Source of the DNA: Fundidesulfovibrio terrae
Lineage (GTDB): Bacteria > Desulfobacterota > Desulfovibrionia > Desulfovibrionales > Desulfovibrionaceae
DNA: 64,000 nucleotides
Assembly: GCF_022808915.1 (NCBI RefSeq)
Contig: NZ_JAKZFS010000001.1
Span: 760,644 to 824,643 of the forward strand
Direction: 5' to 3'
Position 1 is the first letter of the stretch. The number at the start of each line of letters is the position of its first letter. Of the stretch, positions 12,322-28,642 are shown one piece after another. Made by a program: the position numbers and the translations under genes. The notes under the pieces are model-generated. The model had not been told where the DNA came from, did no database searches, and saw nothing but the letters and a program-made list of their open reading frames with translations.

Positions 12322-12364
12322 ATTCTCACCGCTCTCCTGACGGGCCGGTCCCGTCCGACGTCGG

Positions 12365-12419
12365 TTGGCATTTTGCCAAGCCCCCTAAACGGGATTCCAA
12401 AGGGAGGAACTCCCTTTGG
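12365..12419 (-). other. Two hairpins in the hdrB-hdrA spacer
   Basis: Perfect inverted repeats inside the operon: TTGGCA-TTT-TGCCAA at 12365-12379, and CCAAAGGGAG-GAA-CTCCCTTTGG at 12397-12419. Neither is followed by a T-run in the transcript direction, so they are unlikely to be intrinsic terminators. They may stabilise or process the mRNA, or be a small dispersed (REP-like) repeat. Confidence 0.6.
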
Positions 12420-12457
12420 CCGCCGGAGGCATCTTTTCCGCCTTTCTTTTCCTGATC

Positions 12458-13360
12458 TTATCCAGCCTTCCTCTCCGCCCTGGCTTCCAGTGAATCCAAG
12501 AGCGCCTTGGGACTCACGCAGAGCTTGGAGAGGCCCAGGTCCTTCTCGCCGATCCCCAGGGCCAGGCCCAGGAGCTGGGTGAAGTAGAACACCGGCATGT
12601 TGTGGCTGGTCTTGTTGGCCGAGTTGATCTGGTCCTGTCTGAGGTCCAGGTTCATCTGGCACAGGGGGCAGGCCGTGACCATGGCGTCGGCGCCGTTCAG
12701 CGCCGCCATGTCCAAGAGCTTGCCCGAAAGAGTCTGCACGATGTCGCGCCGGGCCACGCCGTAGGACGCGCCGCAGCACTCCACCTTGAGGGGAAAGGCG
12801 ACGGGTTCGGCCCCCACGGCCTCCATGAGCTGGTCCATGGCCACGGGGTTCTCGTGGTCGTCGAACTCCATGATCTCGGGCGGGCGGTTCATGATGCAGC
12901 CGTAGTACGGGGCGAGCTTCAGCCCCGTGAGCCACTTGAACACCTTGGGCCGCACGGCGTCCACGCCCACGTCCTCGATGATGGCCTGCAGCACGGACTT
13001 GACCGGCAGGGTGTTCCTCACGGGCTTGTCCAAAAGCCTGTTCACCTCGGCGGCGAACTCGGGTTTCCTGATCCGCACTGCCGCGGTCTTCAGGTTGGTC
13101 AGACAGCTGGGGCAGGGGGTGATGATGGCGCGGACGTCTTCCAGCATCTCGGCCAGGGCCAGGTTTCGCCCGGCCAGGGCGCTGGAGAGGCGGTGGTCCA
13201 CGGTGTGGGCCGGGGAGGAGCCGCAGCAGCTCCAGTCGGGGATGTCCACCAGTTCCATGCCCAGGGCTTGGCAGACCGCGCGGGTGGAGGTGTCGTATTC
13301 CTTGGACGTGCCAAGGCCCGAGCATCCGGGATAGTAGGCGTAACGCAGCCGCGTGCTCAT
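12458..13360 (-). CDS. hdrB: HdrB: heterodisulfide reductase catalytic subunit with two CCG domains
   Basis: 300 aa. It has the two CCG domains that hold the non-cubane [4Fe-4S] catalytic clusters of HdrB: YYPGCSG...DWSCCGSSPAHT...CPSC in the first half and VECCGASYG...CPLCQMNLD in the second. In Desulfovibrio the likely substrate is a thiol/disulfide such as DsrC rather than CoM-S-S-CoB (inference). The true start is MSTRLRYAYYPG at 13360, whose ATG overlaps the hdrC stop as ATGA; the longer reading frame upstream is out of frame with hdrC and not coding. Confidence 0.93.
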   Translation of the reverse strand: MSTRLRYAYYPGCSGLGTSKEYDTSTRAVCQALGMELVDIPDWSCCGSSPAHTVDHRLSSALAGRNLALAEMLEDVRAIITPCPSCLTNLKTAAVRIRKPEFAAEVNRLLDKPVRNTLPVKSVLQAIIEDVGVDAVRPKVFKWLTGLKLAPYYGCIMNRPPEIMEFDDHENPVAMDQLMEAVGAEPVAFPLKVECCGASYGVARRDIVQTLSGKLLDMAALNGADAMVTACPLCQMNLDLRQDQINSANKTSHNMPVFYFTQLLGLALGIGEKDLGLSKLCVSPKALLDSLEARAERKAG

Positions 13361-13917
13361 TTGTGGCCCTCCTGCCGGAACCGCTCGAATATCTTGGCGA
13401 TGGCCGCCGGGTTCTTCACCTTGTGGGGCAGGGGTGAAAGCTTGCCTTTGGGCAGGATCTTGGGGGCCAGGTCCACGTCGGTCCAGAAGCGTCCGGTCTT
13501 CATGATGAAACTCACCAGGAGGCCCATCTCGAAGGCCCGGCCGTTCTTCTCCACCGACTCCAGGAAGCTGTCCACGAAGGACTTCACCCCGTATTCGGTG
13601 TCCTGGCCCTCGCGCCGGGCCATGTGGCGCAGCGTGTCCATGACGTGGGCCACGTCGATGTTGTTGGGGCAGCGGGTGGTGCAGGACTGGCACGTGGCGC
13701 ACAGCCAGATGGAGCGGCAAGAGAGCAGGGTCTGTTTCTGCCCTGCCTGGAGAAGCCGCATGACCTGGTGGACGGGGATGTCGTAGACGAAGGTGTAGGG
13801 GCAACCGGCGGTGCAGTTGCCGCACTGGTAGCACAGGCTCACCTTCTGTCCGGATTCCTTCTCCACCCGGGCGATGAAATCCAGGTCCCGGGAGGCGGTG
13901 AGAGAGATGACGTTCAT
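13357..13917 (-). CDS. hdrC: HdrC: dicluster ferredoxin subunit of heterodisulfide reductase
   Basis: 186 aa, first gene of hdrCBA-flxDCBA. Two [4Fe-4S] motifs are visible: CYQCGNCTAGCPY (about 29-41) and CATCQSCTTRCPNNID (about 73-88). It has the normal length for the family. It feeds electrons from HdrA to the HdrB active site. It starts after a gap of about 300 nt that must hold the operon promoter, and overlaps hdrB by 4 nt. Confidence 0.93.
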   Translation of the reverse strand: MNVISLTASRDLDFIARVEKESGQKVSLCYQCGNCTAGCPYTFVYDIPVHQVMRLLQAGQKQTLLSCRSIWLCATCQSCTTRCPNNIDVAHVMDTLRHMARREGQDTEYGVKSFVDSFLESVEKNGRAFEMGLLVSFIMKTGRFWTDVDLAPKILPKGKLSPLPHKVKNPAAIAKIFERFRQEGHK

Positions 13918-14215: not shown

Positions 14216-15646
14216 TTAGCCTATGAGCCGCCTGGCGATCTCCTTTGCGGCGCGCCGTCCCGCTCCCATGGCCGAGATGACCGTGGCCGCGCCGGTGACG
14301 ATGTCGCCGCCCGCGAACACATTGGGAATGGACGTTTCACCCGTCTCTTCATTGATGACGATGTAGCCCCACTTGTTGAGCTCAAGTCCCGGGGTGGACT
14401 GCCCGATCAGGGGGTTGGAGCCCGTGCCCACGGCGATGATGGCCATGTCGCAGGGGATTTCGCAGAACTCCCCGTCGCAGGCGATGGGGCTGCAGCGGCC
14501 GGACTCGTCGGGCTCGCCCAGCATCATCTTCTGCACGGTGAGGGACTTGAGCCAGCCCTTTTCGTCACCCACCAGCTCAACGGGGGCGTTCAGGCACATG
14601 AGCTCGATGCCCTCGTCCTTGGCGTGGTGGAGCTCCTCCAGGCGGGCGGGCATCTCCTTCTCGGTGCGGCGGTACACGATCATGACCCGCTCCGCGCCCA
14701 GGCGCTTGGCCGTGCGCGCGGCGTCCATGGCCACGTTGCCCGCGCCGAACACGGCCACGTTCTTGCCCGTGTAGGCCGGGGTGTCGTGCTCGGGGAAGTT
14801 GTAGGCCCGTCCCAGGTTCACCCGGGTGAGGTATTCGTTGGCGGAGAACACGCCGATCAGGTTTTCGCCGGGCACGCGCAGGAACTTGGGCAGGCCCGCG
14901 CCCACGCCGATGAACACGGCGTTGAAGCCCTGGTCCAGGAGGTCCTGCACGGTGATGGTCTTGCCGCCCACCCAGTTGGTGTGGAACTCCACGCCCTGGG
15001 CGCGCATGGCGTCGATCTCCTTGCGCACGATGGCCTTGGGCAGGCGGAACTCCGGGATGCCGTAGACCAGGACGCCGCCCAGCTCGTGCAGGGCCTCGTA
15101 CACGTGCACCTTGATGCCCTGGGCCGAGAGGTATCCGGCCACGGTGAGGCTGGACGGCCCGGCCCCGATGCAGGCCACCTTGAGGCCCTCGCGCTCCAGG
15201 GAGCAGGCGTGGTCGCCGGTGAGCTGTTCGCAGGCGTCGGAGGCCATGTAGGTGTCGGCCACGAAGCGCTCCAGGCGGCCGATGGCCACGGGCTCGCCCT
15301 TCTTGCCCAGGATGCAGGAACCCTCGCACTGGGTCTCCTGGGGGCAGACCCGGCCGCACACGGCGGGCAGGGAGTTGGTTTCGCGCAGCACCCGGTAGGC
15401 TTCGTGCAGGTCGCCCGCGACGATCTGCTTGATGAAGCCGGGGATGTCGATCTCCACCGGGCAGCCCTTGCGGCACAGGGGCTTCTTGCACTGGATGCAC
15501 CGGCTGGCCTCGATGGCGGCCATCTCCGGGGTGTAGCCCAGGGTCACTTCCTGGAAGTTCTTCACCCGCTCGGCGGCCGGCTGTTCCGGCATGGGCGTGC
15601 GGGGAGTCTTCACCTTCTTGTTATCGGCAGGAGCATTTGCAGACAT
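14216..15646 (-). CDS. nfnB: NfnB (large subunit): NADPH-dependent ferredoxin:NAD+ transhydrogenase
   Basis: 476 aa, of the glutamate synthase small subunit-like family. N-terminal ferredoxin-type cysteines (CIQCKKPLCRKGCPVEIDIP; VCGRVCPQETQCEGSC) precede two Rossmann domains: the FAD site (VACIGAGPSSLTVAGYL, about 165-181) and the NADPH site (VAVFGAGNVAMDAARTAKR, about 298-316). Alone it could be mistaken for GltD or a sulfide dehydrogenase subunit. The overlapping upstream gene is the partner NfnA, which makes the NfnAB bifurcating transhydrogenase the best reading. The start overlaps nfnA by 26 nt. Confidence 0.88.
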   Translation of the reverse strand: MSANAPADNKKVKTPRTPMPEQPAAERVKNFQEVTLGYTPEMAAIEASRCIQCKKPLCRKGCPVEIDIPGFIKQIVAGDLHEAYRVLRETNSLPAVCGRVCPQETQCEGSCILGKKGEPVAIGRLERFVADTYMASDACEQLTGDHACSLEREGLKVACIGAGPSSLTVAGYLSAQGIKVHVYEALHELGGVLVYGIPEFRLPKAIVRKEIDAMRAQGVEFHTNWVGGKTITVQDLLDQGFNAVFIGVGAGLPKFLRVPGENLIGVFSANEYLTRVNLGRAYNFPEHDTPAYTGKNVAVFGAGNVAMDAARTAKRLGAERVMIVYRRTEKEMPARLEELHHAKDEGIELMCLNAPVELVGDEKGWLKSLTVQKMMLGEPDESGRCSPIACDGEFCEIPCDMAIIAVGTGSNPLIGQSTPGLELNKWGYIVINEETGETSIPNVFAGGDIVTGAATVISAMGAGRRAAKEIARRLIG

Positions 15647-16478
15647 GGCTCTTCTTGAACTCCTCGTAGGAAATCTGTTCCATGACCTTGAAGGCCGAAA
15701 GGCGGCTGGAGAGCTCCTTGAAGTCCACCAGCTGTCCGTCGAACTCGGGGCCGTCCACGCAGGCGAACTTGGTCTTGCCGCCCACGCTCACCCGGCAGGC
15801 GCCGCACATGCCGATGCCGTCCACCATGATGGAGTTGAGACTCACCGTGGTATGGACGCCGAACGGCTTGGTGGTGCGGGCCACCGCGGCCATCATGGGC
15901 ACGGGGCCCACGGCCACGACCTCACCGATGGTGGGGTCGGCCTTCAGGCGCGCTTCCAGGATCTCGGTCACCAGGCCCTTGTGGCCGTAGGAGCCGTCGT
16001 CGGTGGAGACCAGCACCTCGGGACAGAAGCGCTTGAGCTCGTCCTCGAACAGGAGCAGGTCCTTGGTGCGCGCGCCGATGATGGCGATGACATGGTTGCC
16101 GGCCATGTGGTGCCCCTTGGCGATGTGGTGCATGGCCGCGATGCCGGTGCCGCCGCCCACGCAGATCACGGGGCCGGACAGCTTGTGGATGTCGGTGTCC
16201 TTTCCGAGGGGGCCGCAGAGGTCGAGGATTTCCTCGCCTTCCTTGAGGGTTTCAAGATGGGCGGTCGTCTTGCCGAGAACGAGATAGACGATGGTGATCG
16301 TCCCGGCCTCTTTGTCGGTGTCGGCGATGGTCAGGGGGATGCGTTCGCCCCCCTCGCACACGCGCAGAATGACGAAATTTCCGGGCTTGGCCTTGGCCGC
16401 GATGTGCGGCGCTTCCAGGGTCAGCTCGCTGGTCTGCCCCGGGATGAGGCTTCGTTTCTTTAAAATCCTGCTTGGCAT
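15621..16478 (-). CDS. nfnA: NfnA (small subunit): FAD/NAD-binding [2Fe-2S] protein
   Basis: 285 aa, dihydroorotate dehydrogenase electron-transfer-like subunit. An N-terminal FAD barrel (about 1-95, with GERIPLTIAD) is followed by an NAD-binding domain (about 100-225; VICVGGGTGIAAMHHIA). The C-terminal [2Fe-2S] loop is DGIGMCGACRVSVGG...FACVDGPEFDG. Together with NfnB it couples ferredoxin, NADH and NADPH by flavin-based bifurcation. A ribosome-binding site AGGAG precedes the ATG. The protein ends in a cysteine-rich tail (SHVCKCSCR). Confidence 0.88.
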   Translation of the reverse strand: MPSRILKKRSLIPGQTSELTLEAPHIAAKAKPGNFVILRVCEGGERIPLTIADTDKEAGTITIVYLVLGKTTAHLETLKEGEEILDLCGPLGKDTDIHKLSGPVICVGGGTGIAAMHHIAKGHHMAGNHVIAIIGARTKDLLLFEDELKRFCPEVLVSTDDGSYGHKGLVTEILEARLKADPTIGEVVAVGPVPMMAAVARTTKPFGVHTTVSLNSIMVDGIGMCGACRVSVGGKTKFACVDGPEFDGQLVDFKELSSRLSAFKVMEQISYEEFKKSHVCKCSCR

Positions 16479-16867: not shown

Positions 16868-17425
16868 CTAGCCCGCCAGGGCAGCCTCCAGGTTAGGCGT
16901 GGTGTAAAGTTCCCCGCCGTGACAATCGTTTATCACGAGCAGGGGGAATTTTTCCACGGTGAGTTCGCGGATGGCCTCGGGGCCCAAGTCCTCGTACGCG
17001 ATGACCTTCGCCGCCTTGATGGCCTGGGACAGCAGCGCGCCGGCGCCGCCGGTGGCGCCGAAATAGGCCGCCTTGTACTTGGCCATGGCGTCCTTGACTT
17101 CCGGGCTGCGCTTGCCCTTGCCGATGGTGCCCTTGAGCCCCAGGCTGTGCAGGCGGGGGGCGTAGGTGTCCATGCGGTAGGAGGTGGTGGGCCCGGCCGA
17201 GCCGATGGGGCGTCCCGGAGGCGCGGGGCTCGGTCCCACGTAGTAGATCAGCGCGCCCTTGAGGTCGAAGGGCAGGGCCTCTCCCTTGTCCAGGGAATCG
17301 GTCAGTCGCTTGTGGGCGGCGTCGCGGCCGGTGTAGATGGTGCCGGTGATGTACACCACGTCGCCGGACTTCAACTTCTCGATGTCCGCGTCGGTGAGCG
17401 GGGTCGTCAGGGTATATTCGGCCAT
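16868..17425 (-). CDS. Fumarase class I, beta (C-terminal) subunit
   Basis: 185 aa. Matches the C-terminal domain of class I iron-sulfur hydro-lyases: TPLTDADIEKLKSGDVVYITG, then GRDAAHKRL, GPSPAPPGRPIGSAGPTTS (substrate-binding loop) and CHGGELY near the end. With the alpha subunit it would interconvert fumarate and malate. The start is the ATG at 17425 overlapping the alpha-subunit stop by one base (TAATG), not the upstream ATG at 17461. Tartrate dehydratase is an alternative for this fold, but the fumarate reductase genes upstream favour fumarase. Confidence 0.88.
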   Translation of the reverse strand: MAEYTLTTPLTDADIEKLKSGDVVYITGTIYTGRDAAHKRLTDSLDKGEALPFDLKGALIYYVGPSPAPPGRPIGSAGPTTSYRMDTYAPRLHSLGLKGTIGKGKRSPEVKDAMAKYKAAYFGATGGAGALLSQAIKAAKVIAYEDLGPEAIRELTVEKFPLLVINDCHGGELYTTPNLEAALAG

Positions 17426-18264
17426 TAGAGCACGACCTCCTTGTGCCGCGCGGAGTGGCACTGCACGTTCACGGCCAGGGGCAGGCTGGCCAGATGGCAG
17501 GGGGCCACCATGATCTTGACGCCCAGGCAGGTGGTCTTGCCGCCCAGGCCCATGGGCCCGATGTTGAGCTTGTTGATGGAGGCCAGGACCTCTTCCTCAA
17601 GCTTGGCGATGTCGGCATCGGGATGCTTGTCGTCGATGTCGCGCAGGAGCGCCTTCTTGGAGTTGATGGCCGCCAGCTCGAAGTTGCCGCCGATGCCGAT
17701 GCCCACCAGGATGGGGGGGCAGGGGTTGGGGCCCGCCTCGGCCACGCGGTTGATGATGAACTCGCGAAGGCCCTTCCATCCGGCGGCCGGGGGGAACATC
17801 ATGACCCGGCTCATGTTCTCGGAGCCGCCGCCCTTGGCCATCATCCATATCTTCAGCTTGTCGCCGGGGACCAGGTCGAAGTGGATGATGGCGGGGCCGT
17901 TGTCCCCGGTGTTCTTGCGGGTGAAGGGATCGCAGGAGGACTTGCGCAGGTATCCCTCCTTGTAGCCCTTGACCATGCCCTCGTTGATGGCCTGGCGGAG
18001 GCTCATGCCCTCCACGTGGGCGTCCTCGCCCATCTCCACGAAGAACACGGCGAGGCCGCAGTCCTGGCAGAGGGGCAGGCCGGTCTCCCTGGAGAGCTCG
18101 GCGTTCTCGAGAAGCTGGCGGAAGGTTTCCTTAGCTGCCGGGTTCTCCTCGGCGGCCTGGCGTTCCTTGAAGGTCCGCAGGACGTCCTCGGGGAGTTCGC
18201 GGTTGGCCGCGATGCACATCTCGGCCACCTTGTCGATGATCGTCTGCGCTGGAATCGTACGCAT
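17425..18264 (-). CDS. Fumarase class I, alpha (N-terminal) subunit
   Basis: 279 aa. The [4Fe-4S]-dependent hydro-lyase N-terminal domain with LPLCQDCG (about 77-84), NTGDNGPA, GGGSENMSR and PCPPILVGIGIGGNFE, which carry the cluster cysteines and substrate contacts. It forms a two-subunit class I fumarase with the next gene and supplies fumarate to the fumarate reductase encoded immediately upstream. The 177-nt spacer before it contains GC-rich hairpins. Confidence 0.9.
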   Translation of the reverse strand: MRTIPAQTIIDKVAEMCIAANRELPEDVLRTFKERQAAEENPAAKETFRQLLENAELSRETGLPLCQDCGLAVFFVEMGEDAHVEGMSLRQAINEGMVKGYKEGYLRKSSCDPFTRKNTGDNGPAIIHFDLVPGDKLKIWMMAKGGGSENMSRVMMFPPAAGWKGLREFIINRVAEAGPNPCPPILVGIGIGGNFELAAINSKKALLRDIDDKHPDADIAKLEEEVLASINKLNIGPMGLGGKTTCLGVKIMVAPCHLASLPLAVNVQCHSARHKEVVL

Positions 18265-18441: not shown

Positions 18442-19203
18442 CTACAGGTTGATCTCCCGCTTGAGGAAACTGGGCAGGAAGTTGTTGACGGCGGCGAAGG
18501 CCATCTTCTTGCGCAGCTTGCCCAGAACGTCCTGCAGGGGCAGGTACTTGGGGCACACGTCCTGGCAGGCCAGGAGGCCCATGCAGCCGAAGATGCCCTC
18601 GTCGGTGCCGATGATGTCGAAGTATTCCTTCTCGGTACGCTCGTCGCGGGGATCGAGCATGAAGCGGGCGACGCGGTTCAGGGTCGTGGCTCCGAGGAAG
18701 TCCTCGCGCATCAGCGCCGTGCCGCAGGCGGCCACGCAGCAGCCGCACTCCACGCAGCGGTCGAGCTCGTAGATGGCTTCGGCCACGGCGTTGTCCATGC
18801 GCTCTTCCTGGGCGGTGGGGTCGAAGACCTTCTTGGTGTGGCACCAGGATTCGATCTTCTTGTACATGGCGCGGAACCAGGTTCCGGTGTCCACGGACAG
18901 GTCTCCCACCAGCTTGAAGATGGGCAGGGGCATGAGGGTGATCTCGTCGGGGAGATCCTTGGTCTTGGTGTGGCAGGCCAGGCCCGGGCGGCCGTTGACC
19001 ACCATGGCGCAGGCCCCGCAGATGCCGGCGCGGCAGCAGAAGTCGAACTGCAGCGAGGGGTCCTGTTCTTCGCGCAGGCGGTTCAGCACGATGAAGAGCG
19101 TCATGGACTCGGTTTCATCGATGGTGAAGCTCTGCATGTGCGGGACCGAGTTGGGGTCCTGCGGATTGTACCGGAATATATTGAATTTCAGCATTCTGGC
19201 CAT
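18442..19203 (-). CDS. frdB: Fumarate reductase / succinate dehydrogenase iron-sulfur subunit
   Basis: 253 aa. N-terminal plant-type [2Fe-2S] domain (CCRAGICGACAMVVNGRPGLAC, about 56-77). C-terminal [4Fe-4S]/[3Fe-4S] motifs are CVECGCCVAACG (about 155-166) and CMGLLACQDVCP (about 212-223). It passes electrons between FrdA and the diheme cytochrome FrdC. The start MARMLKFNIFRYNP at 19203 is chosen because AAGGAG precedes it and the family begins there; the frame extends further upstream without support. Confidence 0.93.
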   Translation of the reverse strand: MARMLKFNIFRYNPQDPNSVPHMQSFTIDETESMTLFIVLNRLREEQDPSLQFDFCCRAGICGACAMVVNGRPGLACHTKTKDLPDEITLMPLPIFKLVGDLSVDTGTWFRAMYKKIESWCHTKKVFDPTAQEERMDNAVAEAIYELDRCVECGCCVAACGTALMREDFLGATTLNRVARFMLDPRDERTEKEYFDIIGTDEGIFGCMGLLACQDVCPKYLPLQDVLGKLRKKMAFAAVNNFLPSFLKREINL

Positions 19204-19222
19204 TGTATGCTCCTTGCCTTCC

Positions 19223-21082
19223 CTAGGCCTTCTTGCCCTTGGGCGTGGCCTTGGGCGGGGTGTCCATGGGGATGATCTTGCCGCCGCCGTAGCCGCGTTC
19301 ACCAGGGGGAATCTCGAACACCGTGGTGGAGGGCTCGTAGTTGAGCGTCGGCAGGACATCCTCGGGCTTGGCCCAGGTGGCCAGGGTGCGGTTCAGCCAG
19401 TCGCGGTCGTTGCGCTCGGGGAAGTCCTCGCGGGTGTGCGCGCCGCGCGATTCGGTACGTTTCAGCGCCGCGTAGCACACGCACTGGGCCAGCTTGACCA
19501 TGCCTTCGATCTTGAGGGCGATGGCCAGCTCCTGGTTGGCGCCAAGGCCATTGGACTTGAGCCCCACCTTGCGGGCGCGCACCAGGATCTCGGAGAGCTT
19601 GTCCACGCTTTCCTGCAGGTCGGCGCCGTTACGGAAGATGCCCGCGCCCTTCATGATGGTGTCGAACATGGCGTTGCGCACGGCGTAGACGTTCTCGCGG
19701 CCGTTGGTGCCGTGGATGAGCGCCCGGATGCGGTCTTCCTGCTTGCGGTAGGCGTCGCGCATGCATTCGGTCTTGATGACCGTCTCGGTGCCAGAGAGGA
19801 ACTCCACCACCTTGCCGCCCACGTGCATGCCGGCCACGATGGTCTCGGCCAGGGAGTTGCCGCCCAGGCGGTTGAAGCCGTGCATGTCCCAGCAGGCTGC
19901 TTCGCCCGCGGAGTAGAGGCCCTTCAGGCCGTAGGCCGCGCCGTCCTTGTTGGTGCGCACGCCGCCCATGGAGTAGTGCTGGGTGGGGCGCACGGGGATG
20001 AGCTGGTGCACCGGGTCCACGCCCAGGAAGGATTCGCAGATCTCCTGCACTTCACGCAGCTTGGTGGTGATGTGCTTTTCGCCCAGGTGGCGGATGTCCA
20101 GCCAGAGGTGGTCGCCGTAGGGGCTCTTCACGCCCAGGCCCTTGCGCATGTGTTCGGTCATGCGGCGGCTGACCACGTCGCGGGAGGCCAGCTCGGCCTT
20201 GTCCGGCTCGTAGTCCGGCATGAAGCGGTACTGGTTCACGTCCAGGAGCGTTCCGCCGTCGCCTCGGCAGCCTTCGGTCACCAGGATGTCCGTGGGCACG
20301 ATGCCGGTGGGGTGGAACTGGATGGCCTCGGGGTTGCCCATGGGCACCACGCCGGTATCCAGGGCGGCGATGTGGCCGCCGCCGTCGCAGATGACCGCGT
20401 TGGTGGACTCGCGGTAGATGCGTCCGTAGCCGCCGGTGGCGATCAGCGTGGCGCGCGACAGGTAGGCACGCAGCTCGCCGGTCTTCAGGCAGCGCACGAT
20501 GGCGCCCATGCAGGTCTCGCCGTCATGGATCAGGGCGATGGCCTCGGTCTTGTCGTGGACTTCGACGCCCATCTGGGCGGCGCGGTTGTCCAGGGTGTAG
20601 AGCACGGCGTGGCCGGTGCCGTCCGAGGTGTAGCAGGTGCGCCACTTGGCGGTGCCGCCGAAGCTGCGGGAGTGGATGAGGCCCTCGTTCTCGGGCTTCT
20701 CGAAGGCGGTGAACGGCTTGCCGCCCTTGTAGTAGGTGGCCTCGCCGGGCACCACGCGGTTCCAGGGCACGCCCCAGAAGGCCATCTGGCGCATGGCGAT
20801 GGGGGCGGTGTCCACGAAGATGCGGGCGCATTCCTGGTCGGCGCCCCAGTCGGAGCCCTTCACCGTGTCCGCGAAGTGCACATCCGGGGAGTCGCCCTCG
20901 CCCATGGCCGAGTTGCCGAGCGCCGCCTGCATGCCGCCCTGGGCGGCCGAGGAGTGGGAGCGCCTGGCCGGGACCAGGGAGAGGCAGATGACGGAGAAGC
21001 CGTTGTCCGCGGCCTCGATGGCCACGCGCTCGCCGGCCAGGCCCGCGCCGATGCACAAGAGGTCGGTTTGGAATATCTGCAT
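19223..21082 (-). CDS. frdA: Fumarate reductase / succinate dehydrogenase flavoprotein subunit
   Basis: 619 aa. N-terminal dinucleotide fold LLCIGAGLAGERVAIEAAD, then HSSAAQGGMQAALGN around the histidine that binds FAD covalently. HPTGIVPTDILVTEGCRGDGG and RPTQHYSMGGVRTN are substrate-site signatures, and the capping domain and C-terminal helical domain are complete. It reduces fumarate with menaquinol-derived electrons (or runs in reverse). The order frdC-frdA-frdB and the cytochrome type match the Wolinella-type quinol:fumarate reductase. Confidence 0.95.
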   Translation of the reverse strand: MQIFQTDLLCIGAGLAGERVAIEAADNGFSVICLSLVPARRSHSSAAQGGMQAALGNSAMGEGDSPDVHFADTVKGSDWGADQECARIFVDTAPIAMRQMAFWGVPWNRVVPGEATYYKGGKPFTAFEKPENEGLIHSRSFGGTAKWRTCYTSDGTGHAVLYTLDNRAAQMGVEVHDKTEAIALIHDGETCMGAIVRCLKTGELRAYLSRATLIATGGYGRIYRESTNAVICDGGGHIAALDTGVVPMGNPEAIQFHPTGIVPTDILVTEGCRGDGGTLLDVNQYRFMPDYEPDKAELASRDVVSRRMTEHMRKGLGVKSPYGDHLWLDIRHLGEKHITTKLREVQEICESFLGVDPVHQLIPVRPTQHYSMGGVRTNKDGAAYGLKGLYSAGEAACWDMHGFNRLGGNSLAETIVAGMHVGGKVVEFLSGTETVIKTECMRDAYRKQEDRIRALIHGTNGRENVYAVRNAMFDTIMKGAGIFRNGADLQESVDKLSEILVRARKVGLKSNGLGANQELAIALKIEGMVKLAQCVCYAALKRTESRGAHTREDFPERNDRDWLNRTLATWAKPEDVLPTLNYEPSTTVFEIPPGERGYGGGKIIPMDTPPKATPKGKKA

Positions 21083-21092
21083 GTCGGTATCC

Positions 21093-21752
21093 TTATTTGA
21101 TTGCCAGGAACCAGAAGCGCAGCAGCGTGAGCACGCCGATGCCGATCATGATGGCGGTGAGCATGTTCTCCTTCTTCTTGAAGCCGAACCGCCCCTTGCT
21201 GTCGATAACGCCCCATTTGACCATGATGCGGTAGAAGCCGATGCCCACGTGCAGCTCCACCATGGGCAAGAGCACCAGATAGAAGAGCATCCACCAGCCG
21301 CCCTGGACGCGCGCGGCGGACTTGGCCGCGGTGATGGGGAGGTCAGTGAGCACAACCCACATGTGGATGGAGCCCATGAGGAGGATGATCATGGCCGTGA
21401 CGGCCTGGACGACCCACAACCAGGTGTCGGAGTGGTGCATGCGCTTGGCGTTGGCCAGCATGACGCCCTGCTCCTTGGAGGTGAAGGGGATCTTGCGCGC
21501 GGCCAGCACGAAGTGGAAGAGGAACAGGGCGAAGATGGCGGGACCGCCAACCTGGGCCATGCCGGTCGCTTCGAAGAAGTGGCCGATGGCGTTCATGACG
21601 CCGGGGCCTATGATCACGCTTGAGACCAGGAACAGGTGCGCCCACATGAACATGACCAGGCATGCGCCGGACAGCATCTGGAACCAGTCCAGATAGGCCG
21701 CGCACCTGCAGCTGACCACGGGTTTGTGGGTGGCGATGGACGGGATCGACAT
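21093..21752 (-). CDS. frdC: Fumarate reductase diheme cytochrome b subunit
   Basis: 219 aa with five predicted membrane helices and histidines at the places expected for diheme cytochrome b of the Wolinella FrdC family (MFMWAHLFLVSS, FLFHFVLAARK, MHHSDTWLWVVQ, GSIHMWVVLTD, MVELHVGIGFYR). It anchors FrdAB to the membrane and exchanges electrons with menaquinone. It lies 20 nt after the symporter gene and 10 nt before frdA, so the four genes form one unit. Confidence 0.92.
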   Translation of the reverse strand: MSIPSIATHKPVVSCRCAAYLDWFQMLSGACLVMFMWAHLFLVSSVIIGPGVMNAIGHFFEATGMAQVGGPAIFALFLFHFVLAARKIPFTSKEQGVMLANAKRMHHSDTWLWVVQAVTAMIILLMGSIHMWVVLTDLPITAAKSAARVQGGWWMLFYLVLLPMVELHVGIGFYRIMVKWGVIDSKGRFGFKKKENMLTAIMIGIGVLTLLRFWFLAIK

Positions 21753-21772: not shown

Positions 21773-23104
21773 TTAGGCGTCGGTCTTGTTGCAACCGACT
21801 GCGGGTTCCATGACGAGTACTTCTTCCGGCTGCTCGGCTTCCAGTTCATAATCGCCGTCCAGAACGCATTTCAACCGGTTTTTATCAAGAGAGTTCTCCC
21901 AGTTGGCCACAACGATCGTGGCAACGCCGTTGCCGATCATGTTGGTGAGCGCCCGGCAGGTCGCCATGAACCAGTCCACGCCCAGGAGCAGGGCCAATCC
22001 CGCCACAGGCAGGGTAGGCACGGTGGAGAGCGTGGCGGCCAGGCAGATGAAGCCGCCGCCGGCCACTGCGGCCGCGCCCTTGGAGGTGAGCAGCAGGATG
22101 CCCAGGATGGTCATTTCCTGCCCGAAGGTGAGCGGGGTGTTGGTGGCCTGGGCGATGAACACGGCCGCCATGGTAAGGTAGATGCTGGTGCCGTCCAGGT
22201 TGAAGGTGTAGCCGGTGGGGATGGTCAGGCCCACGACCGACTGGGCGCACCCGGCGTTCTCCAGCTTGGCCATGAGGCGGGGGAGCACGGTTTCCGAGGA
22301 GGAGGTGCCCATGACCACGAAGAATTCTTCCTTGATGTACTTGATGAATTTCCAGAGGCTGAATCCGTTCAGCTTGGCGATGGTGCCGAGCACCAGGAAG
22401 ACGAACAGGAAGGCGGTGAGGTAGACGCCCGCCAGGAGCTTGAGAAGGCCGGTGAGGGTGCCGCCGCCGAAGCTGGCCACGGCGAAGGCCATGGCGCCCA
22501 TGGCGCCCAGGGGCGCGAGCTTCATGATGTAGCCGATGGCCACGAACATGCCGTGGGTGAACTCGTCGATGAAGTGCAGCACCTTCTCGCCCTGCTTGCC
22601 CATATGGGCCAGGCCGAAGCCGAAGAGGATCGAGAACAGCAGCACCTGGAGAATCTCACCCCGGGCGAAGGCGTCCACCACGGAGTTGGGGATGATGTTC
22701 ATCACGAAGTCCAGGGTGCTCAGATGCTTCGAGCCCGAGGTGAACTGGGCGATCCCGTGGGTGTCCAGCTGGGAGACGTCCACGTTGATTCCCTTGCCGG
22801 GCGCGATCAGGTGCACCATGGCCAAGCCGATGACCAGGGCCAGGGTGGTGACGGCCTCGAAGTAGAGCAGGGCCTTGACGCCCACGCGGCCGACCTTCTT
22901 CATGTCGCCCATTTTGGCGATGCCCACGACGACCGTTCCGAAGATGATGGGCGCGATCATCATTTTGATGAGCTTGATGAAGCCCGTGCCGATCGGCTTG
23001 AGATCCTTGGCCAGATGGGGCGCGAAGAATCCGAGGGTTATGCCGATGGCGATGCCCACGATGACCTGGAAATACAACGTCTGGTAAAACTTCTTTCCTT
23101 CCAC
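21773..23104 (-). CDS. Dicarboxylate/amino acid:cation symporter (DAACS family)
   Basis: 443 aa, polytopic, of the SLC1-like family that includes DctA and GltP. Signatures are the serine-rich re-entrant loop [13 protein letters not shown], the [18 protein letters not shown] segment and the C-terminal [25 protein letters not shown]. As first gene before frdCAB and fumarase it most likely imports fumarate, malate, succinate or aspartate for fumarate respiration (inference from context). It is preceded by a strong sigma54 promoter and a palindromic candidate activator site. It is a paralogue of the gene at 23558-24910. Confidence 0.9.
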
Positions 23105-23282
23105 TGTCCCACTCCTCGAGTCGCACTGCTGTTGAAAACGGATGTTCCGACCGACCTCTCTTTGGCCGCCGCGCCGCCGGATACGTTCCGGAGGGGGGCG
23201 GTGTTCTCTGAAATGCCTCAGCCTCGAAAGACCATGTTAGGGTTGCGTGATGCTGGTTCCTGTCGGGCGACTTCCCTTTGAG

Positions 23283-23297
23283 GCAATAAGCGTGCCA
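23283..23297 (-). promoter_or_regulatory. Sigma54 (-24/-12) promoter for the symporter-frd-fum operon
   Basis: Minus-strand sequence TGGCACGCTTATTGC matches the sigma54 consensus TGGCAC-N5-TTGC at every defined position, with GG and GC ten bases apart. It would start transcription near 23271, leaving a leader of about 165 nt before the symporter ATG at 23104. Confidence 0.85.
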
Positions 23298-23407
23298 GTT
23301 TGCGCCTCTTGGGTGGGCGCCTGGGAAGTCCTTTGCAGAAGAGGGTTTATGGTTTGCGGGCGGACGGGAGCAGGCAGTGGGTGCTCCCTCGGTGGTGTGG
23401 CGCTACC

Positions 23408-23445
23408 ATGTGGCGCACGCCACACATGTGTGGCGTGCGCCACAT
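23408..23445. promoter_or_regulatory. 38-bp perfect palindrome: candidate enhancer (UAS) for a sigma54 activator
   Basis: The 38 bp are a perfect palindrome built from two 16-bp near-palindromes, TGTGGCGCACGCCACA and TGTGGCGTGCGCCACA, separated by CATG. Their centres are 20 bp apart (two helical turns). The element is centred about 155 bp upstream of the predicted sigma54 start site, the usual place for an enhancer-binding protein. It is not followed by a T-run on either strand. Confidence 0.65.
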
Positions 23446-23489
23446 ATGTGTGCGGTGATGGTCGGGGCGTCGGAACAAGGGGACGGGAC

Positions 23490-23530
23490 AAAAAAGACCG
23501 GTCCGTACGGCTGGCATATACGGACCGGTC
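23490..23530 (-). terminator. Rho-independent terminator of the second symporter gene
   Basis: Perfect 12-bp stem GACCGGTCCGTA / TACGGACCGGTC with an 11-nt loop, followed in the minus direction by six T residues (the A-run at 23490-23495). It starts 28 nt after the stop codon at 23558 and separates that gene from the next operon's regulatory region. Confidence 0.88.
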
Positions 23531-23557
23531 TCGCGTTACGCTTTGCAGGCTCGGTAA

Positions 23558-24910
23558 TTAGGCCTTGTCGTTCTTGCCGCTGGGCTGCTCGGCGATGAGC
23601 ATGTCCTCGGGGTCGTCGGCGTAGCCGTTGGAGAGGCTGCCCGCGAGCACCGTCTGGAGCTTCTTCTCGTTCAGCGCGCCTTCCCACTTGGCGACCACCA
23701 GGGTGGCCACGCCGTTGCCGATCAGGTTGGTGATGGCGCGGGCTTCGGACATGAAGCGGTCCACGCCCAGAAGCAGGGTGAGCGAGGCCATGGGGATGTT
23801 GCCCACGGAGCCCATGGTGGCGGCCAGGGTGATGAAGCCGCCGCCGGTGACCGCCGCCGCTCCCTTGGAGGTCAGGAGCAGGACGAACATCATGTAGAGC
23901 TGGTCGGCCAGGGTCAGGGGGGTGTTGGTGGCCTGGGCCAGGAACACGACCGCCATGGTCAGGTAGATGCAGGTGCCGTCCAGGTTGAAGGAATAGCCCA
24001 TGGGCAGGGTCAGGCCCACCACGGACTGGTCGGCGCCCGCGTTCTCCATCTTGGCCATCATGCGGGGCAGGGCCGCCTCGGAGGACGAGGTGCCAAGCAC
24101 CAGGAGGATTTCCTCAGAGATGTACTTGAGGTATTTCCACAGGGAGAACCCGGCCAGCTTGCACACGATCCACAGCACCACGAAGATGAACAGCAGGCAC
24201 GTGGAGTAGACGTCGATCATCAGCCTGCCCAGGGCCAGGAGCGCGTCCGCCCCCTGGGTGGACACCACCACGGCCATGGCTCCGAACGCGCCGAACGGCG
24301 CGAAGTACATGATGTAATGGACGACCTTGAAGATGCCCTTGGCGAACTCGTCGATGAATTGCGTGACGTGTCTGGCCTTGTCGCCCAGGGCGGAGAGGCC
24401 GGTGCCGAAGAGGATGGAGAAGAACAGGACCTGGAGGATGTCGCCCTTGGAGAACGCGCCCACCACCGAATCCGGAACGATGTTGGTGAGGAATTCCACG
24501 GTGGAGAGCTTCTTGGTCTCGCCGGCGTACGCCTCGACCTTCTTCACCTGCGCGGCGTCGGCCTGCATCTTGGCGGCGTACTCGTCCATGCCCACGCCGG
24601 GCTTGGTGAAGTTGACCACCACCATGCCGATGGCCAGGGCGAAAAGGGTCATTGTCCAGAAATAGAGCATGGCCTTGAGGCCCACGCGGCCCACCTTGCC
24701 CATGTCGCCCATCTTGGCGATGCCGGTGACCACCGTGCAGAAGATGATGGGAGCGATGACCATCTTGACCATCTTGATGAATGTCTTGGCCAGGGGCTCG
24801 AGCCCGGAGGCGAAATGCTTGGTCTGGGGAATGAAGCCGATGAGAATGCCCATGGCGATGCCGAAAAGAACCCAGAAATACAAAGTCTTGTAAATCTTTT
24901 TGCCTGCCAT
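23558..24910 (-). CDS. Dicarboxylate/amino acid:cation symporter (DAACS family), second copy
   Basis: 450 aa, close paralogue of the protein at 21773-23104. It has the same GTSSSEAALPRMMAKMENAG loop, LPMGYSFNLDGTCIYLTMA and RAITNLIGNGVATLVVAKWE motifs. It differs in a longer extracytoplasmic segment (MQADAAQVKKVEAYAGETKK). A monocistronic unit: it has its own terminator at 23490-23530 and a sigma54-like promoter at 25103-25117. The substrate is probably a C4-dicarboxylate or acidic amino acid. Confidence 0.9.
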   Translation of the reverse strand: MAGKKIYKTLYFWVLFGIAMGILIGFIPQTKHFASGLEPLAKTFIKMVKMVIAPIIFCTVVTGIAKMGDMGKVGRVGLKAMLYFWTMTLFALAIGMVVVNFTKPGVGMDEYAAKMQADAAQVKKVEAYAGETKKLSTVEFLTNIVPDSVVGAFSKGDILQVLFFSILFGTGLSALGDKARHVTQFIDEFAKGIFKVVHYIMYFAPFGAFGAMAVVVSTQGADALLALGRLMIDVYSTCLLFIFVVLWIVCKLAGFSLWKYLKYISEEILLVLGTSSSEAALPRMMAKMENAGADQSVVGLTLPMGYSFNLDGTCIYLTMAVVFLAQATNTPLTLADQLYMMFVLLLTSKGAAAVTGGGFITLAATMGSVGNIPMASLTLLLGVDRFMSEARAITNLIGNGVATLVVAKWEGALNEKKLQTVLAGSLSNGYADDPEDMLIAEQPSGKNDKA

Positions 24911-25295
24911 TTTTCCTGTCTCCTGGATCGCGCTGAAACGATTGTTGTCGTTGGGTGCGGACCTCCGCAGAGTACCGGGCGCGCCGGTGTCCGGGTCGAG
25001 AAGCAGTCGGTCGGTTGTGTACGTATCCTCCTTGAAAGTTGAGTATCGGCGGGGAGGGCGCCGGTTCGAAAAGGTTCTGAACCTGTCTGTTTTGAAAGGT
25101 TAGCACAGAGTCCGCCACAATAACAGGAGAAAATGAGGGGGAGGGGGCTAACCGGCCAGAAACGGTGGCAAAATGGGAATGCGGATGACAAAAAATGCCC
25201 TCGGAGAAGCCGGAAGGCCGCCTGAGGAGTTCCTGCGGCGCATTTTCAGGCCGTCGCGCCCCCGTGGGGCACGGCGTGGGGCAGGGAAAACCAGG
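24911..25295. other. 385-bp spacer: leader and promoter of the second symporter, 3' flank of the regulator
   Basis: Apart from the sigma54-like element at 25103-25117, the region contains an A/T-richer leader and a polypurine stretch (25130-25147). No second copy of the TGTGGCG dyads was found here. No terminator for the regulator gene ending at 25296 could be recognised. Confidence 0.4.
25103..25117 (-). promoter_or_regulatory. Sigma54-like promoter for the second symporter
   Basis: Minus-strand TGGCGGACTCTGTGC has GG and GC exactly ten bases apart and matches TGGC and TGC of the TGGCAC-N5-TTGC consensus. It is weaker than the element at 23283. It would give a leader of about 180 nt, similar to the paralogue's. 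Confidence 0.5.
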
Positions 25296-28200
25296 CTACT
25301 GGATGGCGAACTTTTCCATGTTGCGGTAGAGCGTGCGCCGGTCCACGCCCAGAAGGCGCGCGGCCTTGGCCCGGTTGTTGGCCGAGCGCTCCAGGGCCTC
25401 CAGGATGTCCTCGCGCGAGAGCCCCCGTTGGAGGAAACGCTCCGGGGCGGGGCTGGCGTGGCGCTGGGGGACAGCAAGGCGCGGGGCCGGACCTCGCGTG
25501 AGCTCCGGGGGCAGGTGGGCGGGCAGGATTTCCCCGCCCGGGCACAGGATGCTGGCGTGCTCCAGCGCGGAACGCAACTCGCGCACGTTGCCGGGCCAGG
25601 GGTAGGTCATGAAGATGCGCATGACCTCCTCGCCCACCCGGGCGATGTGCTTGCCGAAGCTCGCCCTGAAGAGCCCCAGGAAGTGCTCGCACAGAAGCGG
25701 GATGTCCTCGGTGCGCTCGCGCAGCGGCGGCACGTGGATCACCATGACCTTGAGGCGGTAGTAGAGGTCCTCCCGGAAGAGGCCCTGGCGGATTTTCTCC
25801 AGCATGTCCACGTTGGTGGCCGCGATGACGCGCACGTTGGCCCGGCGTGTCTTGGAGTCGCCCACCCGCTCGAACTCCTTGCGCTCCAGCACCCGCAGGA
25901 GGTTCAGCTGGATGCGCGGGGAGATGTCCCCGATTTCGTCCAGGAAGATGGTGCCGCCCTCAGCAGCCTCGAAGCGTCCCACCTTGTCGCGGATGGCCCC
26001 TGTGAAGGCCCCGCGCACGTGCCCGAAGAGCTCGCTCTCCAAAAGGCTTTCGGACAGGGCCGAGCAGTTCACCTTGATGAGGGGGCTCTTGGCCCTGGGG
26101 CCGCCGTAGTGCAGGGCCTCGGCCACCAGCTCCTTGCCGGTGCCGGATTCGCCCGTGACCAGCACCGTGGACTCCACCTCGGAGAGCTGGTCCAGCACCG
26201 CGTAGATGGAGCGCATCACCTTGGACTTGCCGATGAGCCCCCGGTGGCCGTGCAGGTCGGTGAGGCGCTTCTCCAGGTCGGCCAGGCGGGTGATGTCTCG
26301 TATGACCAGCACCGCGCCCACGAAGTTGTTTTCCGGGTCCAGGAGCGGGGAGGAGTTGATGACCACGGTCTGGCCCGGCCGGTTGCCCTTGCACTCCACC
26401 CGGTACTCCTGCACCGGCTCGCGGGTCTTGAGGGTGGTGGAGATCACCTCGAAGCAGGCCCGCTTGCAGTGCCCGGCCACCAAGTGCAGATGCTTGCCGT
26501 GGGCGGACTCGCAGCCGATGCAGCACAGTTCGGAGAGGGCCCGGTTGGTCTGGAGCACGTTCATCTCGGTGTCCACCACGATGATGGCGTCCGGGATGGA
26601 GCGGAACACGGCCTCAAGGTTCAGGCGCAGGCGCTCCTTCTCGTCCATGACCTTCTCGTAGGCCCGCTCGGCCATGACCCGCTCGGTGATGTCGCGGCCC
26701 ACGGACTGGTATTCCATCAGCCTGCCCTGATGGTCGAAGAGGGCGTGGTCGTTGCGGGCCAGCCAGCGCTCCTCGCCGCCTGGGGTGTCCAGCTTGAACT
26801 CGATGGCTCCTACTGGGTTGGACGGCGACAGGGATTTCAGGTGGCGCTCCAGCAGTTCGGCCTCGTCCGGAGGCAGCCCGGCCATGTAGACCGAACCCAG
26901 GAGCTCCTCCTTGGACTTGCCGAAATACCTGGCCACGGCGGCGTTGGCGAAAGTGATGGTGCCGTCGGGGCGGAAGCGGCAGACCAGCTCGGTCTGGTCC
27001 TCGACGATGGCCCGGTAGCGCGCCTCGCTGGATTCGAGCGCCTCCTTGATGAGGCGCCGCGCCGTGACGTCGGTCAGGTAGCCCACGATCTCGGCCGGGC
27101 GTCCCAGGTCGTCGAGCACCAGGCGGAACTGGTCGCGTATCCAGCGGGTTAGGCCCTGGGCGTTGATGAAGCGGTATTCGCGGGTGCCCTGGCCCATGGC
27201 CAGCTGCAGGCGCAGCTCGGCCTCCATGATGGGGGCGTCGTCGGCGTTCAGGCGCGAGAGCCAAAAGCCGTGGTCCTTGATGAAATCGTCGGGGGTGAAG
27301 CCTGTCAGGTCCTCCACGTTGTCGGAGATGAAGGTCAGTTCCAGCTCGCCCACGGGGCGGCGGGAGTATATCACCGCCGGAGAGCTGGTGAGCAGGGCCT
27401 GGAGCCGGGCCTGGGTGCGTGCCAGCTTGTCCTCGGCCTCCTTGCGCTCGGTGATGTCCTGCACCATGGGCAGGTAGTAGCTGGGGTTGCCGGAGGCGTC
27501 GCGCAACAGCCCCGCCGAGAGGTGCACCCAGACCACCTTGCCGCTCTTGTGGATGTAGCGCTTGTCGAGCTCGTAGTGTTCTATCATCCCGCCGCGCAGC
27601 TTGGCCGAGCGGTCCAGGGCTCCCTCCACGTCGTCGGGGTGGGAGAGGATGATGATGTTCTTGCCGAGGAGTTCCTCCTCCTCGTAGCCGGTGATGCGGC
27701 AGAAAGTCTCGTTGGCCCGGATGAAGGTCCAGTCCAGGGAGAGCATGGCCGCCCCGATGGGGGACTGGTCGAAGGTGCGCCGGAACTTTTCCTCGGATTC
27801 CCGGAGCGACGTCTCCGCTTCCCGCAAAGCCTCCTCGGCGCGTTTGCGTTCGGTGATGTCGATGTTCAGGCCTTCGATGTACAAAAGCCTGCCGTTGTGG
27901 TCGCGCACCTGGCGCGCGCTGGTGTTGATCCAGCGCACCCCGCCGTCCTTGCGCCGGAAGCGGGTCTCGAAGCCGGTGATGCGTCCCTGGGCCTCCAGCT
28001 GGTTCAGAAGGTAGTCGCGATCGGCAGGGTCCACGTAGAGCTGGGTGCGCAGGTCGGTGAGGGAACCTATGAGCTCTTCCGGGCTGGCGTAGCCCAGGAT
28101 GTCGCACAGGGCCGGGTTCACGGCCATGAAGCGCCCGTCCGCCGTGGACTGGAACACGCCCTCCACGGCGTTCTTGAAGAAGGAGGCATACTTGCGCTCG

Positions 28201-28547
28201 GCCTGCTTGAGCGGGGTGAGGTCGGTGAAGGTGATGATGCTCTTGAGGCCCTTGGGGGTGTCCAGGGGCCGCACCGAGATGAGCACGGGCATGCGCGTGC
28301 CTTCGGCCCCCTGGAGCATGCGCTCCTGGGGCGGGAGCTGGGCCGTCAGGTCCATGGGCGGGAACTTCTCGGGCTCGCAAAGGCATTCCAGCCCGTGGCA
28401 GGCCCGGCCCACCACCTCCCCCTCGGCGCGTCCCAGAAGCTCCAATGCCTTGGGATTGGCATGTTCGATGACGTAGCTCGCGACGTCCACCACCAGGATG
28501 CCGGCGTCGATGGCTTCGAGAAGGTCGAGATTGCTGCTCAAGGACAT
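25296..28547 (-). CDS. Multi-PAS sigma54-dependent transcriptional activator
   Basis: 1083 aa. Six PAS-type sensor domains occupy about residues 1-755; most end in DITERK/DVTARR-type linkers. They are followed by the AAA+ sigma54-activation domain (about 758-990) with Walker A GESGTGKELV, the sigma54-contacting loop GAFTGA, Walker B GGTIFLDEIGD and the arginine-finger segment. The protein ends in a Fis-type helix-turn-helix (KAARLLGVDRRTLYRNMEKF). The sixth PAS is cysteine-rich (CCIGC...HCKRAC), so a metal, Fe-S or redox signal is possible. The first PAS also has clustered cysteines. The start MSLSSNLDL at 28547 is preceded by GGGAGAG. No receiver domain is present. It is adjacent to two sigma54-type promoters of C4-transport genes, which it may control. 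Confidence 0.92.
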   Translation of the reverse strand: MSLSSNLDLLEAIDAGILVVDVASYVIEHANPKALELLGRAEGEVVGRACHGLECLCEPEKFPPMDLTAQLPPQERMLQGAEGTRMPVLISVRPLDTPKGLKSIITFTDLTPLKQAERKYASFFKNAVEGVFQSTADGRFMAVNPALCDILGYASPEELIGSLTDLRTQLYVDPADRDYLLNQLEAQGRITGFETRFRRKDGGVRWINTSARQVRDHNGRLLYIEGLNIDITERKRAEEALREAETSLRESEEKFRRTFDQSPIGAAMLSLDWTFIRANETFCRITGYEEEELLGKNIIILSHPDDVEGALDRSAKLRGGMIEHYELDKRYIHKSGKVVWVHLSAGLLRDASGNPSYYLPMVQDITERKEAEDKLARTQARLQALLTSSPAVIYSRRPVGELELTFISDNVEDLTGFTPDDFIKDHGFWLSRLNADDAPIMEAELRLQLAMGQGTREYRFINAQGLTRWIRDQFRLVLDDLGRPAEIVGYLTDVTARRLIKEALESSEARYRAIVEDQTELVCRFRPDGTITFANAAVARYFGKSKEELLGSVYMAGLPPDEAELLERHLKSLSPSNPVGAIEFKLDTPGGEERWLARNDHALFDHQGRLMEYQSVGRDITERVMAERAYEKVMDEKERLRLNLEAVFRSIPDAIIVVDTEMNVLQTNRALSELCCIGCESAHGKHLHLVAGHCKRACFEVISTTLKTREPVQEYRVECKGNRPGQTVVINSSPLLDPENNFVGAVLVIRDITRLADLEKRLTDLHGHRGLIGKSKVMRSIYAVLDQLSEVESTVLVTGESGTGKELVAEALHYGGPRAKSPLIKVNCSALSESLLESELFGHVRGAFTGAIRDKVGRFEAAEGGTIFLDEIGDISPRIQLNLLRVLERKEFERVGDSKTRRANVRVIAATNVDMLEKIRQGLFREDLYYRLKVMVIHVPPLRERTEDIPLLCEHFLGLFRASFGKHIARVGEEVMRIFMTYPWPGNVRELRSALEHASILCPGGEILPAHLPPELTRGPAPRLAVPQRHASPAPERFLQRGLSREDILEALERSANNRAKAARLLGVDRRTLYRNMEKFAIQ

Positions 28548-28642
28548 TACGGACTCTCTCCCGCCGCATTGGTTAAGCCCGGGGCGGCCCCCTGGCAAGA
28601 GGCTTTGACAACGCCGCCGGGCTTTGTCACAGCTCGGGGCAT

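Follow-up and report, generated by a model that had tools for sequence, protein, structure and literature searches.

A palindromic array beside a sigma54 activator gene as predicted enhancer of a fumarate reductase operon in Fundidesulfovibrio terrae

Gene content of the locus

The window analysed here, a 64-kb stretch of the Fundidesulfovibrio terrae genome, carries two DctA-type transporter genes that flank a palindromic array and a sigma54-type promoter, followed by genes for a quinol:fumarate reductase and a fumarase and preceded by the gene of a sigma54 activator (enhancer-binding protein, EBP) (Table 1). DctA-1 is 80–89% identical to the first gene of the locus in relatives and sits between the activator gene and the array. 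Its importance had been overlooked in the original prediction, as had the terminator that closes the DctA-1 transcript ahead of the array and the further half-site at 23396–23401. Against named genomes, DctA-2 found its matches in Desulfuromonadales, Burkholderiales and similar groups at 60–64%. The closest PDB entry to the fumarate reductase is 5xmj, the quinol:fumarate reductase of Desulfovibrio gigas. Between frdA and the frdB frame as listed there is an overlap of 137 nt; because the frdB family match begins at residue 53, the gene probably starts near 19203 instead.

Table 1. Features of the fumarate reductase locus, listed in the direction of transcription (positions refer to the window)
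Feature	Position	Strand	Basis or remark
One-component sigma54 activator (EBP) with PAS domains, AAA+ GAFTGA and C-terminal Fis-type HTH	25296..28598	-	Pfam, orthologue alignment
Decayed -24/-12 relic TGGCGGACTCTGTGC of DctA-1	25103..25117	-	208 nt from ATG, ancestral distance
DctA-1	23558..24910	-	NCBIfam DctA above cutoff
Intrinsic terminator (15-bp stem, loop, U-run)	23488..23532	-	-29.7 kcal/mol, z -4.66
Predicted enhancer core, 38-bp perfect palindrome with two TGTGGC-N4-GCCACA dyads	23408..23445	.	Self-complementarity, conserved array
Further predicted enhancer half-site GCCACA	23396..23401	-	-104 relative to the -24 element
Predicted sigma54 promoter TGGCACG-CTTA-TTGC	23283..23297	-	Consensus scan, conservation in relatives
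Expected 5' untranslated leader	23105..23271	-	Inferred from promoter position
DctA-2, inserted transporter, first gene of the operon	21773..23104	-	NCBIfam DctA above cutoffs
frdC, diheme-type cytochrome b of quinol:fumarate reductase	21093..21752	-	20 nt after DctA-2
frdA, flavoprotein subunit	19223..21082	-	Sequence matches
frdB, iron-sulfur subunit	18442..19359 (listed ORF)	-	Family match
Fumarase alpha subunit, Fe-S type	17425..18264	-	Family match
Fumarase beta subunit	16868..17461	-	Family match

Palindromic array and sigma54-type promoter

The element TGGCACGCTTATTGC (23297–23283, minus strand) matches TGGCACG-N4-TTGC without mismatch, as originally predicted, and is the only perfect match in the 64-kb window. 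It combines the -24 GG and -12 GC of sigma54 promoters at 10-bp spacing. The genome encodes RpoN (one PF04552 match, 4.7e-60), and the promoter sequence points to sigma54 dependence of the dctA2-frd operon. Transcription would be expected to start near 23271, about 12 nt downstream of the -12 element; the resulting leader had no match in Rfam.

Positions 23408–23445 equal their own reverse complement across all 38 bp and hold two 16-bp dyads, TGTGGCG-N2-CGCCACA, at 23409–23424 and 23429–23444. The perfect palindrome, the 20 bp between the dyad centres and the distance of about 155 bp from the palindrome centre to the expected start near 23271 all hold as first described. With up to three mismatches allowed, the tandem dyad pattern occurred once in the window, with none, against 0.00 occurrences expected from shuffles of the window. 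A genome-wide search for TGTGGCG-N2-CGCCACA, which the original prediction had proposed, returned exactly two copies in the 3.9-Mb genome, both within 23408–23445, all other sites having at least two mismatches. The array pattern with one mismatch was found at six further places, fewer than in the reversed control, and the activator therefore probably has a single target in this genome as far as the simple patterns used can tell. The idea of a wider regulon was dropped on the same count.

The dyad ends, TGT-N10-ACA, are of the usual EBP site type, and the half-site at 23396–23401 has a counterpart at -101 to -106 of the -24 element in many relatives. The array has the make-up of an EBP enhancer, with at least two dyads placed 80–200 bp upstream of a promoter and conserved together with it.

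The neighbouring activator

The activator matches Sigma54_activat (7.8e-66), several PAS domains and HTH_8 in Pfam, and its GAFTGA motif and HTH align in the orthologues, as is characteristic of EBPs. Its translation likely starts at an internal ATG, at 28569 or 28547. Among 14 Pfam families there was no Response_reg match, PAS domains being present instead; an assignment to DctD, an NtrC-type response regulator, was rejected for want of a receiver domain. NifA gave the best NCBIfam score for the HTH and AAA+ region and was likewise rejected, at 354.6 bits against a cutoff of 528.85. In the PAS region before the AAA+ domain, C692, C711, C715 and C736 are conserved without change in almost every orthologue whose sequence extends over them. 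This cysteine cluster is possibly a redox or metal sensor, and its near invariance makes redox or metal sensing as possible as dicarboxylate sensing.

Co-occurrence of activator, array and promoter

Orthologues of the activator were identified in 34 of 288 family genomes, distributed over five genera. Nearly all activator-positive genomes share one order: activator, TGTGGC/GCCACA array, -24/-12 element, transporter gene, frdCAB-fumAB. Next to the array, almost every one of these genomes encodes a counterpart of the gene first put forward as the candidate activator (25296–28547). Thirty-four loci were readable, namely 33 from the orthologue list and that of G193, whose activator is below the cutoff; G192 was left out because its locus lies at a contig edge. 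Of these loci, 33 carry a -24/-12 element that departs from the consensus at no more than one position, and 32 an array scoring above all 300 shuffles. In genome G191 the activator comes with neither array nor promoter; G028 combines a perfect promoter with diverged half-sites (TGGGGC/GCCCCA) that do not exceed the shuffles. A link between this half-site variant and an R-to-K exchange in the recognition helix fits G028 and G285, and was dropped because G290 has the variant with an unchanged helix.

As a control, we started from the frdC genes of 65 genomes that lack a close orthologue of the activator and inspected 1.5 kb upstream of frdC at the best 30 loci; neither a -24/-12 element (up to one mismatch) nor a half-site cluster was present at any of the 30. 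Conservation of the palindrome at orthologous operons, on which the original prediction had been made to depend, thus takes the form of array plus -24/-12 element at 32 of 34 activator-positive and none of 30 activator-negative loci (Fisher p 6e-16, a value that ignores phylogeny and overstates independence because related genomes share ancestry). When the family was scanned independently for the tandem pattern, 18 of the 288 genomes matched, 16 of them activator-positive; the other two contained looser N6 matches that were not near any operon gene.

Enhancer geometry

At activator-positive loci the array mostly starts 141–148 bp upstream of the -24/-12 element. From the intact first dyad to -24 the distance is 145–147 bp in the window's genus, 144–148 bp in g29 (forward type) and 141–146 bp in g25. 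What the arrays share is a cluster of some three to six half-sites whose distance to the promoter hardly varies, and the half-site of the window at -104 recurs near -103 in relatives. Successive forward half-sites are separated by 20 bp in the window's genus, 18–19 bp in g29, 16 bp in G011 and 29–31 bp in g25. The proposal that a 20-bp spacing places two activator dimers on the same DNA face is therefore compatible with the window itself but not general: the spacing characterises the genus and not the system as a whole. With dyad spacing that varies and a distance that hardly changes, the roughly 33 arrays form a natural series on enhancer geometry and sigma54 activation.

Relocation of the array and exchange of the transporter

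In relatives, array and promoter usually stand directly before DctA-1, whereas in the window array and perfect promoter follow DctA-1 and its terminator and precede DctA-2. The arrangement of the window is the derived one. Upstream of DctA-1 (24911–25295) there is no enhancer dyad and no sigma54 site with three or fewer mismatches; what is found is the relic listed in Table 1. The DctA-1 leader in the window aligns with that of relatives. This leader of about 190 nt is conserved in the genus, e.g. AAGGTCCGCA and AGCGCGATCGAGGAG, and lies at 12107–12300 in L131, at 11440–11630 in L133, similarly in relatives, and at 24911–25090 in the window. Neither the region nor the relatives' leaders had a match in Rfam, and the leaders of the genus yielded no convincing consensus fold.

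An orthologue of DctA-2 (77%) was found only in G005, at an unlinked place and without array or promoter. In G002, another species of the window's genus, array and sigma54 promoter are located between DctA-1 and frdC (L132, 8484–8647) and DctA-2 is lacking, a parallel relocation. Both there and in the window the array moved together with the promoter and frdCAB. The transporter slot is occupied by a DASS-type (Na_sulph_symp) carrier in G034 (L138, 6680–8029) and G201 (L196, 738–2219) and, by sequence, also in G195, and the transporter is missing in G196, G286 and G293. G201 has two arrays with promoters, the second before frdC. The G002 locus, the loci with a DASS-type carrier or no transporter, and the window together indicate that the cassette follows frdCAB and that the transporter is exchangeable. 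DctA-1 appears to have left the control of the enhancer, and DctA-2 to have taken its place.

Tentatively, and with less than even confidence, we suggest that the regulator-enhancer-promoter cassette is kept at fumarate reductase while its transporter is swapped, and that the retained distance of about 145 bp (about 14 helical turns) reflects a fixed loop geometry. If so, the enhancer would need this geometry despite rewired dyads and would not act at any distance.

Proposed mechanism and alternative explanations

Since array and promoter recur with the activator at one and the same operon in about 32 genomes, and neither was found at operons of genomes that lack the activator, the array is the predicted site of this activator. 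It is very probably where the neighbouring PAS-domain protein lands to switch on fumarate uptake and reduction. The explanation as a whole, in which the activator from 25296–28598 acts on the array to drive sigma54 transcription of dctA2-frdCAB-fumAB, we hold with high, though not complete, confidence. The activator would bind the array as two or three dimers, and its PAS domains would register a signal, perhaps redox state or the supply of C4-dicarboxylates. Once assembled, the AAA+ domains would use DNA looping to contact RNA polymerase-sigma54 at the -24/-12 element, some 145 bp further downstream, and remodel it. Transcription of dctA2-frdCAB-fumAB would allow fumarate or malate to be taken up and reduced to succinate.

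Another EBP of the same cell might bind the array at an otherwise genuine promoter, given that the genome has 34 Sigma54_activat matches, about 30 of them full-length, one of which could also act here. We regard this as unlikely: nearly all genomes with this particular activator carry the array next to its gene, and the frd operons of activator-negative genomes lack the array. For other EBPs a comparable association is not known, co-occurrence having been computed for this EBP only.

CRP/FNR-type sites resemble TGTGGCG-N2-CGCCACA in length and symmetry, so the dyads could be 16-bp TGT-N10-ACA sites of a CRP/FNR-family dimer that works independently of the sigma54 activator. That origin is very improbable: the array is centred at about -155, not near -41 or between -61 and -90 as class I and II activation require, and it comprises several half-sites with variable dyad spacing, unlike CRP/FNR sites. 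Moreover, its presence across genera goes with that of the EBP and of the -24/-12 element, and it is found nowhere else in the genome, although a CRP/FNR regulator would usually have several targets.

Hardly credible is a reading of the palindrome as a hairpin, terminator or mobile-element end instead of a protein-bound regulatory site, even though it forms a perfect inverted repeat shortly after the end of a gene. A distinct canonical terminator with a U-run already lies before it, the array is upstream of the promoter and hence not within its transcript, relatives keep the half-sites and not the perfect palindrome, which is the pattern of a protein site, and the genome contains no further copies.

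Comparison with known systems

In rhizobia and Vibrio, DctB/DctD control, with sigma54 and an EBP, drives the DctA symporter through upstream dyads. The arrangement described here is like that of DctB/DctD and dctA in pairing sigma54 and an EBP with upstream dyads at a DctA symporter (PMC11077940), but the receiver domain that marks DctD as a response regulator is absent from the activator of the window, which has PAS domains instead. The dyad ends fit the TGT-N10-ACA of the NifA upstream activating sequence exactly; unlike NifA, however, the activator scores below the NifA cutoff and has PAS domains instead of a GAF sensor, and lies beside an operon other than nif. GcsR of Pseudomonas aeruginosa likewise acts from a three-site EBP enhancer, with three separately bound dyads upstream of an RpoN promoter, but is TyrR-like and glycine-responsive and has the motif TGTAACG-N4-CGTTCCG (PMC4894688).

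The sigma54 regulome of Desulfovibrio vulgaris Hildenborough lists 36 regulons with typically one to four operons per EBP (PMC4641369). Its one-component EBP regulons are similar in having a single-target EBP beside a sigma54 promoter and half-sites with TGT/ACA ends; none of the 36, however, controls fumarate reductase, and the word 'fumarate' is absent from the main text (PMC4641369). The nearest functional precedent is dcuB of Geobacter sulfurreducens, which encodes a fumarate/succinate exchanger under RpoN control, a C4-dicarboxylate transporter needed for fumarate respiration (PMC2725144). It differs in its DcuB-type transporter, in not being linked to frdCAB and in belonging to a different bacterial class, and the sections of that paper considered here name neither an enhancer nor a cognate EBP (PMC2725144). 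The literature searched, mostly outside subscription journals, contained nothing on sigma54 or an EBP with fumarate reductase in Desulfovibrio and no regulator for the frd operon. A one-component EBP regulon at fumarate reductase is thus of a known type, of which this member is not described in that literature.

Physiological context

Fumarate reductase and dicarboxylate uptake decide growth on, or disproportionation of, fumarate and malate in these bacteria, and a specific candidate activator, DNA site and promoter can now be assigned to the fumarate reductase operon in five genera. For D. alaskensis G20 on malate and fumarate, both frd and the transhydrogenase nfnAB-2 are important to fitness (PMC4215793). 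An NfnAB-like transhydrogenase pair (14216–16478) follows the fumarase genes in the window and may be part of the operon's physiological unit; the nfnB-like gene (15621–16478) has a counterpart behind the operon in at least six relatives. Further downstream, HdrA-like and HdrC-like proteins are encoded at 10348–13917.
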